This document shows, one piece after another, positions 2,239-6,416 of a stretch of DNA of 64,000 bases. Position 1 is the first letter of the stretch, and every line of letters starts with the position of its first letter. The position numbers and the translations under genes were made by a program. The notes below the pieces were generated by a model, which saw nothing but the letters and a program-made list of their open reading frames with translations, was not told the DNA's origin and did not search any database. Source of the DNA: Qipengyuania xiapuensis (GTDB lineage Bacteria; Pseudomonadota; Alphaproteobacteria; Sphingomonadales; Sphingomonadaceae); NCBI RefSeq assembly GCF_019711395.1, contig NZ_JAIGNL010000001.1, forward strand, positions 1,550,001-1,614,000, given 5' to 3'.

Positions 2239-2690
2239 AGGTTGGCTGCCGCGTTCTCGCGGCCGTAGAGTTCGTCCGCCCGCTTTTCGAACGCTTCGAC
2301 CATCTTGCGGAAAGCGCGGTCGAAATACTGGCCCGCTAGCCGCTCGAACATGGCGTTGCGAAAGGTGAAGTCGACGCAGAAATCTATCTCGCAGCCACCG
2401 TCCGGCAGGCAGGTGAAACGCCAGTTGTTGTCGAGATCCTTGAGCGGACCGTCGACGTAAAACACCTCGATATGATCCGGGCGATTCTTGATCACCCTTG
2501 AGGTGAACTTCTCGCGGATTGCCTTGAAGCCGACGAGCATGTCGGCCGTCATTTCGCTCTCGCTGTCACTGCGAATCCGCGTGGCGACGACCCAGGGCAG
2601 AAACTCGGGATATTTCGCCACGTCCGCGACGAGGTCGAACATCTGTTCGCAGCTGTAAGGGAGACGGCGCGTCTCGCGGATGCCCGGCAT
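2235..2690 (-). CDS. SRPBCC-fold COQ10/RatA family protein
   Basis: This 151-residue START/polyketide-cyclase-like protein belongs to the Coq10/RatA family. It opens with RRLPYSCEQMFDLVADVAKYPEFLPWV, which is characteristic of the family, and has the later DGPLKDLDNNW and EIDFCVDF strands. Eukaryotic Coq10 binds ubiquinone and supports respiration. E. coli RatA was described as a toxin blocking ribosome subunit joining. For an alphaproteobacterial copy the quinone-chaperone role is the more plausible, by inference. The start codon overlaps the lipA stop by one base, so the two genes are translationally coupled. The same lipA-coq10 order is common in alphaproteobacteria. Confidence 0.88.
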   Translation of the reverse strand: MPGIRETRRLPYSCEQMFDLVADVAKYPEFLPWVVATRIRSDSESEMTADMLVGFKAIREKFTSRVIKNRPDHIEVFYVDGPLKDLDNNWRFTCLPDGGCEIDFCVDFTFRNAMFERLAGQYFDRAFRKMVEAFEKRADELYGRENAAANL

Positions 2691-3655
2691 CAGGCTTTCT
2701 GCCTCGCTTGCTCCTTCGCAAGGCGTTCTTCGCGCGCAGCCTTCATCACGGCGAAATCGTCGCCTGCGTGATAGCTCGAACGCGTCAGCGGGCTCGAGGC
2801 AACCTGCAGGAAGCCCTTGGCGCGGGCGATCGAACCATAGGCTGCGAACGCCTTGGGCGTGACGAAATCCTCGACCTTGGCGTGCTTGGGCGTTGGCTGG
2901 AGGTACTGACCCATGGTGATGAAATCGACATCCGCGCTGCGCATGTCGTCCATGACCTGGTGCACTTCGAGGCGCTGTTCGCCGAGGCCGAGCATGATGC
3001 CCGACTTCGTGAAGATCATGGGGTCGTGCGCCTTCACTTCCTCGAGCAGGCGCAGCGAAGCGTAGTAGCGCGCACCCGGACGGATCGTGGGATAGAGACG
3101 CGGCACCGTCTCGAGATTGTGGTTGTAGACGTCGGGCCCAGCCTCGCAGATCTTTTCGACTGCAGCGCGCATCTTGCCGCGGAAGTCGGGCGTGAGGATT
3201 TCGATCGTCGTGTCGGGCGTCTCGCGGCGAAGCGCCTTGATCACCTTGACGAACTGGTCCGCACCGCCGTCGGGCAGGTCGTCACGGTCGACGCTGGTGA
3301 TGACGATGTGATTGAGACCCATCTGCCCCGCCGCGATCGCGACGTTTTCCGGCTCCATCGGGTCGACCATCCGCGGCATGCCGGTCTTCACGTTGCAGAA
3401 GGCGCAGGCGCGAGTGCAGACATCGCCGAGGATCATGACCGTGGCGTGCTTCTTGTCCCAGCATTCGCCGATGTTCGGACAGGCCGCTTCCTCGCACACC
3501 GTATTGAGCGAGAGGTCGCGCATCAGCTTGCGCGTCTCGTGATAGCCCTTGCTGACCGGAGCCTTGACGCGGATCCAGTCGGGCTTGCGCTGCCGCTTGG
3601 GCTGTTCGCCTTCGGGCTTCGGAGGGGAGGAAAGGTCGTTCATTGCGCGGCCCAT
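2690..3655 (-). CDS. lipA: Lipoyl synthase
   Basis: This 321-residue radical SAM enzyme inserts two sulfurs into octanoyl groups on lipoyl domains, such as those of the pyruvate dehydrogenase encoded at 18362-20827. The auxiliary [4Fe-4S] cluster motif is [12 protein letters not shown] near residues 54-65. The radical SAM cluster motif is CTRACAFC near 80-87. [26 protein letters not shown] and the C-terminal RSSYHAGD are also present, including the RSSY motif that contributes the Ser ligand. Length fits the family. Two in-frame starts, ATG at 3655 and 3643, differ by four residues and neither has a clear ribosome site. Confidence 0.98.
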
Positions 3656-3726
3656 CTAGGGAAAGGCGAGTATGTCTGCAATGGTGCAGCTTGCTCTTTC
3701 GCGAAGCTGGGATTACGCGGCGCGCT

Positions 3727-4710
3727 ATGGAAACGATGGGCATCCAAGCGCTGACCTCTCCGGTCATCTTGTTTTTCGTTCTCGGACTCTTGGCGGCATT
3801 CGCACGGTCCGATCTTGCAATACCCGAAGCCATCGCGAAGGGCATGTCCCTCTACCTCATGGCGGCGATCGGCCTGAAAGGTGGCATCGAGGTCGCCGAA
3901 TCCGGCCTCGACGGCACGGTGCTTGCCGCACTCGCAGCCGGCATCGGCGCGGGTTTTGTTATGCCGATCTACGCTTACTGGGTGCTCAAGGGCTTCGGGC
4001 GGCTCAGCCGAATCAATGCCGGCGCGGTAGCAGCGCATTATGGTTCGATCAGCGTCGTCACATTCGTCACCGCTGTCGAGATCTACACTATTCAGGGCAA
4101 TCCGCCTCAGGGGTACATGGTCGCCGTGATGGCATCCATGGAAAGCCCGGCGATCCTTGCTGGTCTTCTGTTGGCTCGCGGTCTCGGTTCGGAAGAGGGA
4201 CAGAGCCGCAAGGAACTGGCCCACGAGGTGCTTCTCAATCCTTCGGTTGTCCTGCTGTTGGGCGCATTCATCATCGGCATGATCGCGGGTCCCGAAGGCT
4301 TCGCCGATGTGAAACCGTTCTTCGATGGGCTCTTCAAGGGCATCCTCTGCCTGTTCCTGCTGGATATGGGTCTTATCGCGGCGCGACGTATTCTCGATGC
4401 GCGTTCTCTGACCTGGCGGCTGGTCGCCATCGCCATCGTGCTGCCGCTGGTGAACGGCGCCATCGGCACCGTCCTCGGTGTCTCGATTGGGCTCGATACC
4501 GGTTCCGCAGCCGCGCTCGGCGTGCTGTGTGCGAGCGCTAGTTATATCGCCGTACCAGCGGCCATGCGCCTCGCCCTGCCCGAAGCTGATCCGGGCATTT
4601 ACCTGACGATGTCGCTGAGCATCACCTTCCCCTTCAACGTGTTGCTGAACATCGGCCTGATCGGAGCCCTTGCCGCGACGCTGACCGGCGCAGGAGCCGT
4701 GACCCCATGA
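3727..4710 (+). CDS. sbtA: SbtA-family sodium-dependent bicarbonate transporter
   Basis: This polytopic membrane protein of about 327 residues matches the DUF897/SbtA family, which in cyanobacteria takes up bicarbonate with Na+. The sequence alternates hydrophobic helices from residue 8 on, beginning SPVILFFVLGLLAAFARSDL. It keeps the family features IPEAIAKGMSLYLMAAIGLKGG (split between helices 1 and 2), AAHYGSISVVTF and ASASYIAVPAAMR. The next two genes, a PII-like protein and a carbonic anhydrase, strengthen the assignment. The stop shares ATGA with the next gene. Start choice is between ATG 3727 and ATG 3736; a weak purine-rich stretch favours 3736, and both give the same core. The substrate is inferred from family and context. 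Confidence 0.87.
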   Translation: METMGIQALTSPVILFFVLGLLAAFARSDLAIPEAIAKGMSLYLMAAIGLKGGIEVAESGLDGTVLAALAAGIGAGFVMPIYAYWVLKGFGRLSRINAGAVAAHYGSISVVTFVTAVEIYTIQGNPPQGYMVAVMASMESPAILAGLLLARGLGSEEGQSRKELAHEVLLNPSVVLLLGAFIIGMIAGPEGFADVKPFFDGLFKGILCLFLLDMGLIAARRILDARSLTWRLVAIAIVLPLVNGAIGTVLGVSIGLDTGSAAALGVLCASASYIAVPAAMRLALPEADPGIYLTMSLSITFPFNVLLNIGLIGALAATLTGAGAVTP

Positions 4711-5015
4711 TCGAAACAGTTATCCGCAAGCGTATCGAAATCCTTGCCGACCAGGCGCAGGTAAAGCGCGTGACCTCCATCATCGATGAGGTCGGCATTA
4801 CGGGGTGGACGGTACTTCCCGTTTCTTCAGGCCGGGGGCGCGAGGGCCGTTGGCGCGAAGAACGCGTCATGGGAACGGACAAGAATCTGGTGGTAACCAT
4901 CGCGTCGCAAGAGAACTCGCAAGCCTTGGCCCAGGCACTTGCTCCCATACTGACATCTCACGGATTGCTCCTGACTATGTGGGATGTTGAAGTCATCCGC
5001 GGAGAGCGTTTCTGA
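4707..5015 (+). CDS. sbtB: PII-like SbtB-type signalling protein
   Basis: This 102-residue protein resembles PII-fold trimeric regulators, in particular SbtB, which binds cAMP/AMP and ATP and gates SbtA in cyanobacteria. The recognisable part is VKRVTSIIDEVGITGWTVLP (residues 19-38), followed by a Gly/Arg-rich loop SSGRGREGRW in the T-loop position and the later TMWDVEVIRG strand. It lacks the C-terminal Cys-Gly-Pro-x-Gly-Cys motif of many cyanobacterial SbtB proteins, so redox control through that loop is not expected. It overlaps sbtA by ATGA and the carbonic anhydrase start by one base. Which nucleotide it binds cannot be told from sequence. Confidence 0.82.
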   Translation: MIETVIRKRIEILADQAQVKRVTSIIDEVGITGWTVLPVSSGRGREGRWREERVMGTDKNLVVTIASQENSQALAQALAPILTSHGLLLTMWDVEVIRGERF

Positions 5016-5656
5016 TGCCCGAGTTTGCCGAGCTACTTCAGGGCTATCGTCGCTTCCGCAAGGAAGGATACCCACGCCAGAAAGCCCGCTATGACGACCT
5101 CGTCAGCAAAGGCCAAAGTCCAAAGCTGATGATTATCGGCTGTTCCGACAGCCGGGTCGATCCCGCGCAGATTTTCGATGTCGATCCGGGTGAAATTTTC
5201 GTAGTCCGCAACGTGGCCGCACTGGTCCCCCCGTTCGAGACATCGCCGGGACAGCATGGCGTGTCGGCGGCACTCGAATTCGCGGTCCAGTTTCTGAAGG
5301 TGCGCCAGATTGTCGTTATGGGGCACGGGATGTGCGGGGGGTGCAAGGCCGCACTAACCCAAGACCTGCATGGCAATCCGCTCGGCGAAGGCGGTTTCGT
5401 CGCGAATTGGGTGCACCTCCTCGACGAGGCCCGCGAACCGGTTGCGCAGAAATACGGCACCGAAAGTCGCGAGGCCGAACGCGCCATGGAAATGGCTGCT
5501 GTCGGTGTGAGCATCGAGAATTTGCGGACCTTTCCGTGCGTTCGTGAAAAGGAAGCAAGCGGCGAACTCAAGCTGCGGGGCGCTTTTTTCGCGATCTCGG
5601 ATGGTGTGCTTCACGTGCGAAACGAGAAAACCGGGGAATTCGAACCGGCAGAGTGA
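5015..5656 (+). CDS. can: Beta-class carbonic anhydrase
   Basis: This 213-residue beta-carbonic anhydrase interconverts CO2 and bicarbonate in the cytoplasm. Zinc ligands are visible as Cys43 in CSDSRVDP, and His104 and Cys107 in HGMCGGC. Asp45 and Arg47 form the usual catalytic dyad. PGEIFVVRNVAALVPPF is the second conserved block. No signal peptide is present. Its start overlaps the SbtB-like stop by one base, so transporter, regulator and enzyme form one operon. The obvious reading is import of bicarbonate plus equilibration with CO2 for carboxylases. No RuBisCO is in the window, so feeding of anaplerotic or fatty-acid carboxylation is inference. Confidence 0.95.
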   Translation: MPEFAELLQGYRRFRKEGYPRQKARYDDLVSKGQSPKLMIIGCSDSRVDPAQIFDVDPGEIFVVRNVAALVPPFETSPGQHGVSAALEFAVQFLKVRQIVVMGHGMCGGCKAALTQDLHGNPLGEGGFVANWVHLLDEAREPVAQKYGTESREAERAMEMAAVGVSIENLRTFPCVREKEASGELKLRGAFFAISDGVLHVRNEKTGEFEPAE

Positions 5657-5693
5657 CTTGCGCTCCTGACGTGCGCGGCCCATGTGGACGCGC

Positions 5694-6416
5694 ATGGCAG
5701 AAAAAGAACTGAAAAACATCGCCCTGTTGATCGACGCGGACAACATCAAGCCGCAGGGCATCGATCCCGTCCTGACCGTCATGGCCGAACTGGGCCAGGT
5801 CAACATCAAGCGGGCCTATGGCAACTTCGCCAAGACCAATCTTTCGAAGTGGGACAAGATCTCCCACAAGTTCGGCATCCTCCCCCAGCAGCAGTTCGAC
5901 CTGACTGCGGGCAAGAACGCCACCGACATGGCCATGACGATCGATGCGATCGACCTGCTCTACCAGGGCAAGGTGGATGGCTTCGGCATCATGAGCTCCG
6001 ACAGCGACTTTGCGCCCCTTGCCACGCGGCTGAGGCAGGACGGCCTGATCGTCTACGGCTTTGGTGAGAAGAAGACGCCTGACGCTTTCAAGAGCGCCTG
6101 CACGAGGTTCATCGATATCGATGCCCTGATTGCCGGTGCGTCGGACGAACCCTCCCAGTCGAAGTCGAACAACGGCAAGGTCAAGGCTACCATCGACGAT
6201 GAACTCGTCGAGCTTCTCGGTACTGCGTGGAAAGCCGCCAACCGCGACGACGAAGGGTTTGCTCAGATGGGAGAGGTCGGAAGCCTCGCCGGTAACCGGT
6301 CCAGCTTCGACGTCCGGAACTATGGCTTCAAACGCCTGTCGGACCTGTTCCAGTCGCTCGACCAGTTCAAGGTCGAACGCCGCGACAACACGCTCTGGGT
6401 CAAGCGCCTGCGCTGA
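5694..6416 (+). CDS. NYN-domain RNase-like protein with C-terminal OST-HTH/LOTUS domain
   Basis: This protein of about 240 residues has an N-terminal NYN domain of the PIN-like nuclease fold (residues 5-150). Acidic metal-binding positions are visible at Asp14 and Asp16 in LLIDADNI, in KNATDMAMTIDAIDL, and in MSSDSDFAPLATRL. The C-terminal 75 residues, with DDEGFAQMGEVGSLAGNR and the aromatic/basic end, look like an OST-HTH (LOTUS) RNA-binding domain. Bacterial members are often called LabA-like or Maf1-like and are presumed RNases. I prefer the ATG at 5694 over the one at 5682, which adds four residues. It sits 37 bp after the carbonic anhydrase but no functional link is evident. Confidence 0.85.
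   Translation: MAEKELKNIALLIDADNIKPQGIDPVLTVMAELGQVNIKRAYGNFAKTNLSKWDKISHKFGILPQQQFDLTAGKNATDMAMTIDAIDLLYQGKVDGFGIMSSDSDFAPLATRLRQDGLIVYGFGEKKTPDAFKSACTRFIDIDALIAGASDEPSQSKSNNGKVKATIDDELVELLGTAWKAANRDDEGFAQMGEVGSLAGNRSSFDVRNYGFKRLSDLFQSLDQFKVERRDNTLWVKRLR

Follow-up and report, generated by a model that had tools for sequence, protein, structure and literature searches.

Positions 3727-5656 of the stretch analysed here, 64,000 nucleotides of the Qipengyuania xiapuensis contig NZ_JAIGNL010000001.1 (the window), carry three genes that we think rather likely to form a bicarbonate supply module with PII-type gating, in a heterotroph whose genome has no match to RuBisCO. The genes run head to tail on the forward strand and encode an sbtA-type transporter of 327 amino acid residues (3727-4710), a PII-like regulator of 102 residues that resembles CPII and SbtB (4707-5015), and a beta-carbonic anhydrase (CA) of 213 residues (5015-5656). 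The first-pass annotation had placed three overlapping genes here, and the open reading frames agree with it exactly. The stop codon of sbtA and the start codon of the PII-like gene, sbtB, share 4 bp (ATGA, 4707-4710), and the stop codon of sbtB and the start codon of the CA gene share 1 bp (TGATG, at 5015). These overlaps suggest that the three genes are co-transcribed. The expected place of the operon promoter is the 71-bp gap between sbtA and the divergent gene lipA (3656-3726), in which no sigma-70-like site was matched.

The transporter matches the Pfam profile Sbt_1 with an E-value of 8.1e-113 and 377.2 bits (cut-off 27) over positions 1-306 of 308. This full-length match identifies it as a member of the Sbt_1/DUF897 superfamily, so that the profile check proposed for the first gene placed it inside the family and not outside. 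Its description as SbtA-like is therefore right as to the superfamily but not as to canonical SbtA, from which it differs in clade and in two of four substrate-contact residues, as discussed below. The nearest named SbtA among the matches listed is that of Qipengyuania xiamenensis 1XM1-15A, with 99% identity. Two Sbt proteins are found per genome in Nostoc and Microcoleus. By blastp the transporter has 47-48% identity with the second copies of these genera (L186, L187) and 47% with that of a member of the Leptolyngbyaceae (L185); the value for the canonical SbtA1 copies (L190, L189) is 26-27%. A quick, midpoint-rooted tree of 57 rows, with some long branches flagged (L214 and L178 among them), separates eight canonical type-1 rows carrying the motif SSSDIS from the 49 others with an SH-aLRT support of 100. 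The larger clade holds the transporter, the cyanobacterial second copies, and proteins from proteobacteria and a number of other phyla. Two proteins from cyanobacterial genomes of 1.7-1.8 Mb (L212, L213) also group with the transporter and apart from SbtA1, and L212-L214 lie within this second clade though they do not match the motif pattern. The corresponding motif of the transporter, SASYIA, is found in all 28 Sbt members of the host family. On these grounds the transporter is assigned to the second Sbt clade (SbtA2-like) and not to canonical SbtA1. The label SbtA2 was taken from the descriptions in PMC13249358 and PMC9477826, not from published SbtA2 sequences.

The second gene follows sbtA directly, and its product matches the Pfam profile P-II (E 5.1e-12, 46.5 bits). 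Its closest sequence match in the PDB is the Thiomonas CPII (5d4n, E 7.4e-7), followed by an Anabaena PII-like protein (3dfe, 1.5e-4) and the SbtB of Cyanobium (9e-3). A profile of 70 sequences gave the same order, with CPII at 3.6e-20, TTHA0516 at 3.9e-15, SbtB-type entries at 2.5e-13 to 6.8e-12 and nitrogen PII proteins from 2e-5. Prediction of the fold from the single sequence was poor (pLDDT 62.5), and an alignment-based model with a pLDDT of 91.1 was used instead. The best Foldseek match of this model is CPII 5d4o (TM 0.92, rmsd 1.7, 21% identity), while SbtB chains among the 50 matches listed reach a TM of 0.63-0.77 on the query. Five columns are conserved in at least 90% of the 70 PII-like sequences, K8, G42, G44, G47 and R98, and the residues are identical in CPII. 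By sequence and by predicted fold the regulator is thus closest to CPII; the earlier description as a PII-like partner stands, but SbtB is not its closest relative.

The core of the T-loop, GRGREGRW (residues 42-49, codons at 4830-4853), contains three of these columns, G42, G44 and G47. The segment GRGREG corresponds to the G-x-G-x-x-G of CPII, and the G-x-G-S-R-N sequence of SbtB, which is carried by the SbtB proteins beside type-1 Sbt copies, is not present in the protein. The C-terminal R-loop tail CGPxGC is absent from the translation, as had been noted, and a tail of this kind was found in none of 72 named PII-like sequences (L180 being incomplete). It is also absent from some cyanobacterial SbtB proteins (PMC10991534). 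The first-pass annotation had correctly described the loop as unlike that of cyanobacterial SbtB and had supposed that the sensed ligand might differ as well. However, the loop is not unique, since it matches that of CPII, and the PDB titles of 5d4o and 5d4p describe CPII crystal structures with ADP, AMP and bicarbonate. This leads to a more concrete hypothesis, that the regulator may bind ADP or AMP together with bicarbonate; bicarbonate sensing is proposed here by analogy with CPII. The CPII of Thiomonas intermedia (5d4n/5d4o) is therefore the best reference for this protein in sequence, fold, T-loop core and the five conserved columns. It differs in that the identity in the structural alignment is only 21% and in that CPII is called carboxysome-associated in the title of its paper, while the genome studied here has no RuBisCO match; by this proxy a carboxysome association is not indicated, shell genes not having been searched.

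The third gene product matches the Pfam profile Pro_CA (E 9.4e-45, 153 bits) and contains both sequence motifs of the class, C-x-D-x-R as CSDSR at residue 43 and H-x-x-C as HGMC at residue 104. Its residues 7-197 match the pea beta-CA 1ekj with an E-value of 3.1e-37. The protein can be classed as a beta-carbonic anhydrase, in agreement with the first description of this gene row, and the corresponding activity is expected from its sequence. It has no visible N-terminal extension and is therefore probably cytosolic.

The host genome of 2,713,266 bases, rated 100% complete, has one Sbt_1 match and one Pro_CA match, which makes the CA of the operon the sole beta-CA at that sensitivity. The profiles RuBisCO_large (PF00016), Photo_RC for the photosynthetic reaction centre and Bac_rhodopsin had no match in this genome. 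The RuBisCO search, which had been suggested earlier, was thus negative, and the description of the organism as a non-cyanobacterial, Qipengyuania-like heterotroph holds as far as tested. Bicarbonate is used by PEP carboxylase, acetyl-CoA carboxylase and carbamoyl-phosphate synthase. A partial PEP carboxylase match was found inside a 933-residue frame (E 3.6e-13, above the cut-off), which suggests one likely consumer of bicarbonate in the host.

The same profiles were compared across 149 genomes of the family Sphingomonadaceae, in which 28 genomes have Sbt_1 over the cut-off and 43 at E <= 0.001; the 15 genomes with a weak Sbt_1 match alone were scored as negative, and one weak reaction-centre match (G118) and one weak rhodopsin match (G109) were excluded. 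Reaction-centre genes occur in 7 of the 28 Sbt-positive and 18 of the 121 Sbt-negative genomes (Fisher p 0.26), rhodopsin in 2 and 21 (p 0.25) and RuBisCO in 0 and 7 (p 0.35), the p values being rough because the genomes are related. None of the three comparisons shows an association, and a tie of Sbt to phototrophy or autotrophy in this family was rejected.

In the 28 Sbt loci of the family, with fetched flanks of about 1.5 kb beyond which more distant CAs are missed, a PII gene adjoins sbtA in 27 cases and a CA gene is present in 23, of which 20 have all three genes on one strand as sbtA-sbtB-CA. This frequency is not due to chance. With starts chosen by script, 15 of these 20 loci preserve the 1-bp overlap between sbtB and the CA gene. 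Other arrangements are CA-sbtA-sbtB in L003, sbtA-CA without sbtB in L023 and a distant CA on the other strand in L014. The surroundings follow the landmark order ispDF-cinA-coq10-lipA and then CA-NYN-TPR-gyrA, incomplete in some loci. In the window the upstream landmark, the lipoyl synthase gene lipA (2690-3655, reverse strand; Pfam LIAS_N and Radical_SAM), lies outside the module. The gene sbtA is within about 1 kb of lipA in 20 loci, including that of the host, and elsewhere in 7 genomes; the flanks of G022 were not fetched, and its script label "syntenic" did not enter the distance test.

A beta-CA is present in 145 of the 149 genomes, and in 15 of the 18 fetched CA loci without adjoining sbtAB it lies no more than 0.75 kb from lipA with no sbtAB between. 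On the CA tree of the family, operon CAs and stand-alone CAs are intermixed. These two observations indicate that the family's syntenic CA is old and that sbtAB is a cassette which many loci have ahead of it and many lack. The idea that the CA travels with sbtAB in sphingomonads was rejected, since the CAs intermix on one tree and have one syntenic place. The compact module of the first description is accordingly real as a gene row, but its enzyme is the ordinary CA of the family, before which sbtAB comes and goes. On a neighbour-gene tree of 34 rows, from which G005 was omitted as too short, the presence and absence of sbtAB requires at least 10 changes. Distances of sbtA and of the neighbouring genes correlate with r 0.43 over 19 genomes, a value reached by 63 of 5000 permutations. 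Simple vertical descent of sbtAB is only partly supported, and the many changes together with the moderate correlation point to a mixture of loss and exchange.

Several individual genomes should be mentioned. The genome G108 (L051, L013), rated 100% complete, has sbtAB (L051:3823-5114) away from lipA, with 74% and 72% identity to the proteins of the operon, and no Pro_CA match, the search having covered CAs of the beta class alone. It is a possible natural case of a pump standing in for a beta-CA. G078 (L042, L073), a congener of the host, has the CA at lipA without sbtAB; its sbtAB genes lie elsewhere and belong to another lineage (59% and 44% identity). In G030 (L023), where sbtA and the CA gene adjoin without an sbtB match, a second Sbt_1 match is in two pieces, one of them with an internal TGA.

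Outside the family, CA linkage was studied in 30 class-level, 80 named and 30 cyanobacterial loci. These are the best-scoring and not random samples, and the named set is the best 80 of at least 583. A PII gene is present in 72 of the named loci, and a same-strand adjacent CA in 24, of which 14 are at the lipA locus. The 10 others comprise seven CA-sbtA-sbtB loci of Rhodobacterales, two sbtA-sbtB-CA loci of Hyphomicrobiales (L136, L143) and one sbtA-sbtB-CA locus of Nostoc (L179). At cyanobacterial type-2 loci a same-strand CA lies downstream within 0.9 kb in 9 of 26 cases, a count that includes a weak partial match (L199) and L186, the same gene as L179; the corresponding count for type-1 loci is 0 of 8. 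In the cyanobacterial loci L186, L194, L196, L197, L198 and L200 the second Sbt copy, the PII-like gene and the CA gene all run in one direction. Five sampled neighbouring CAs were all Pro_CA. The neighbouring CAs form at least three groups, cyanobacterial, Rhodobacterales, and sphingomonads with Hyphomicrobiales, on a quick tree with the long branches L136, L143 and L153 flagged. The separation of groups within Alphaproteobacteria may be partly ordinary descent, and the reversed gene order in Rhodobacterales is a stronger sign of separate joining. Across the class, Sbt_1 was found in 73 of 385 genomes. A Pfam scan of the class-level neighbours of sbtAB revealed little beyond the Na+/H+ antiporter NhaA, which is the commonest (4 of 78 flanking ORFs) and is in line with Na+ coupling. 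The CA linkage of Sbt thus recurs but is not general. The recurrence in separate settings argues for a role in inorganic carbon.

The module could work as follows. The Sbt-type membrane protein would import HCO3- with Na+, and the beta-CA, probably in the cytosol, would equilibrate it with CO2 arriving from respiration or by diffusion. The PII-like trimer, to judge from SbtB and CPII, would sense adenylates and probably bicarbonate too, and its T-loop would block the cytosolic mouth of the transporter once energy runs short or the pool has filled. The HCO3- would be supplied to PEP carboxylase, acetyl-CoA carboxylase and carbamoyl-phosphate synthase. The transporter of MpsAB in Staphylococcus aureus belongs to a family other than Sbt. 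MpsAB provides a precedent for the supply of dissolved inorganic carbon for anaplerosis in a heterotroph (PMC6689103). The two systems are similar in this respect, but in S. aureus, as in E. coli, transporter and CA can replace each other (PMC6689103), while here they share one gene row. Such a pairing is unexpected, since the HCO3- that is pumped in should be lost through a CA in the cytosol; PII gating may be what makes it workable, by preventing a continual futile loss of CO2.

Several observations weigh against bicarbonate supply as the function of the operon. The leak of CO2 that should arise from a cytosolic CA beside a bicarbonate pump is one of them, and other taxa follow a pattern of either pump or CA (PMC10880623). 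The linkage is also incomplete. No CA was seen in the fetched 1.5 kb at 5 of the 28 family Sbt loci, and in 56 of the best 80 named loci no CA gene adjoins on the same strand (52 without a CA match, 3 with the CA further off and 1 with it on the other strand). The link is likewise not seen in 17 of the 26 cyanobacterial type-2 loci, and among 28 further class-level loci one has a CA, on the divergent strand, while 25 have a PII gene. In addition, Liu et al. 2021 (PMC8352866) identified S114, Y140, S324 and S327 as the bicarbonate contacts of SbtA6803 by docking, backed by alanine mutants at these positions whose activity fell to about 10-40%. In the alignment to SbtA6803 two of the four are kept in the transporter, as S109 (S114) and S272 (S324), and two are changed, Y140 to M135 and S327 to A275.

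Published results on bicarbonate transport by the second clade conflict. When the SbtA-like protein of Labrenzia alexandrii was assayed in E. coli, HCO3- was not taken up (Du et al. 2014, PMC4275256); it is the sole alphaproteobacterial SbtA-like protein that we found reported as tested. This species is now named Roseibium alexandrii, and its congener Roseibium sediminicola (L143) has one Sbt protein, of the second clade and in an sbtA-sbtB-CA row. The tested protein is therefore probably its orthologue. The SbtA of Prochlorococcus MED4 showed no uptake in a cyanobacterial system (PMC4275256), and a Microcystis SbtA-like copy is seemingly no substitute for SbtA (PMC11890772). On the other side, the SbtA2 of marine Synechococcus, which is paired with a second PII-like protein, took up HCO3- in E. 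coli with a Km of about 150 uM and in a chloride-dependent manner (PMC13249358, citing Rourke et al. 2026a). CA-deficient E. coli is rescued by two Sbt proteins of Thiomicrospira pelophila, which may or may not belong to this clade (PMC12628692). In Shewanella a point mutation of the SbtA-like protein SO_3758 gives formate tolerance, and the wild-type gene increases the formate tolerance of Zymomonas; its reported residues S268-A269-S270-Y271-I272-A273 are the same SASYIA motif (PMC12093963).

The Shewanella and Labrenzia results, together with the two changed contact residues, would be explained if the cargo of the transporter were a different small anion, for instance formate or some other monocarboxylate, and the link to the CA were indirect. 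This is rather unlikely in view of the repeated adjacency of CA genes, involving different gene orders and different groups of CAs, and of a PII-like partner closest to a protein solved with bicarbonate. In addition, no formate enzyme is present among the 25 commonest of the 60 Pfam families in the class-level neighbours. It is also conceivable, at a distinctly low probability, that the operon serves pH or ion homeostasis and not carbon supply, by a Na+-driven cycle of base import in which HCO3- enters, the CA combines it with a proton and CO2 leaves. Such a cycle requires just what the operon combines, a pump with a CA in the cytosol, the host has no RuBisCO match that could account for the use of HCO3-, and the frequency of NhaA among the class-level neighbours would fit. 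However, there is no direct evidence for such a cycle, a PII-like partner suggests gating by carbon or energy and not by pH, and the 121 of 149 family genomes without Sbt_1 over the cut-off must keep their pH by other means.

The association could in principle be an accident of position, sbtAB having landed before a housekeeping CA and been kept there by inheritance only. The CA loci at lipA without sbtAB, the intermixed CA tree, the seven family genomes with sbt genes elsewhere and the many class-level Sbt loci without a CA are all compatible with this. It was already weakened, and in our opinion made very improbable, by the return of a CA neighbour in Rhodobacterales, with the reverse order, in Hyphomicrobiales and in cyanobacteria, where the CAs group apart, and by the preservation of the 1-bp overlap in most of the family rows. 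Sbt and CA are components of the CO2-concentrating mechanism of cyanobacteria, but that the operon belongs to a classic mechanism of this kind feeding RuBisCO is scarcely credible. RuBisCO is unmatched in the complete host genome and in all 28 Sbt-positive family genomes, and the CA is the family's ordinary one; as far as PF00016 can show, this candidate is refuted for the host genome.

The reading preferred here is therefore that of a PII-gated module for bicarbonate supply. A broader and more tentative proposal, which we consider somewhat less likely than not, is that a type-2 Sbt protein, a CPII-like PII protein and a beta-CA constitute a carboxysome-free module for inorganic-carbon homeostasis, assembled more than once, in cyanobacteria as well as in heterotrophs, each time when a CA became linked to this one kind of transporter and sensor. 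The PII protein would then directly read bicarbonate, which the module itself produces, along with adenylates, and this product-feedback loop would be what makes a pump and a cytosolic CA useful together.

Comparison with known systems helps to delimit the operon. It shares with canonical SbtA-SbtB (Synechocystis slr1512-slr1513) the Sbt_1 family, an adjoining PII-like gene and the residues S114 and S324. It differs in having SASYIA for SSSDIS, in the loss of Y140 and S327 and of CGPxGC, and in the adjacent CA, which is found within the fetched flanks of none of the eight canonical type-1 loci. Cyanobacterial SbtA2-SbtB2, named in PMC13249358, likewise combines an Sbt protein of a second clade with a PII-like protein of its own, but here the pair is found in an alphaproteobacterium without reaction-centre or RuBisCO matches, and the T-loops and tails of the cyanobacterial PII-like partners of second Sbt copies are other than those of this operon. 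The SBT-family permease of SAR11 IIIa/LD12 is likewise from heterotrophic Alphaproteobacteria, but neither a PII partner nor a linkage to CA is mentioned in the excerpts of PMC10030771. The occurrence of Sbt-like proteins in heterotrophs has thus been published before (PMC10117731; PMC10030771); a description of an sbt-PII-CA operon in heterotrophs was not found in the parts consulted of the openly licensed full-text literature. In Spiribacter salilacus (L135:2-1123) sbtA consists of two open frames with a stop between them, and an intact sbtB follows.

Most studies of PII-gated Sbt pumps concern carbon concentration in photosynthesis. The Sbt set of this operon is related to those pumps but distinct, and it is linked to the only beta-CA of a bacterium that has no RuBisCO match, contrary to the pump-or-CA pattern seen elsewhere. 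The operon makes the cargo of the second Sbt clade and bicarbonate sensing by a CPII-like partner testable, and the presence or absence of sbtAB at one locus in close relatives offers natural pairs for physiology.

Downstream, a gene for an NYN-LOTUS protein (5682-6416, forward strand; Pfam NYN E 5.2e-36, OST-HTH E 8e-11) begins 25 bp past the CA gene. No terminator-like site was found between the two, and this, with the short spacing, suggests that it may be a fourth gene on the transcript of the operon. A nuclease- or RNA-binding-like protein beside a carbon operon is an unexplained neighbour. An NYN match is present in 26 of the 34 fetched loci in which lipA lies beside a CA gene or sbtA.

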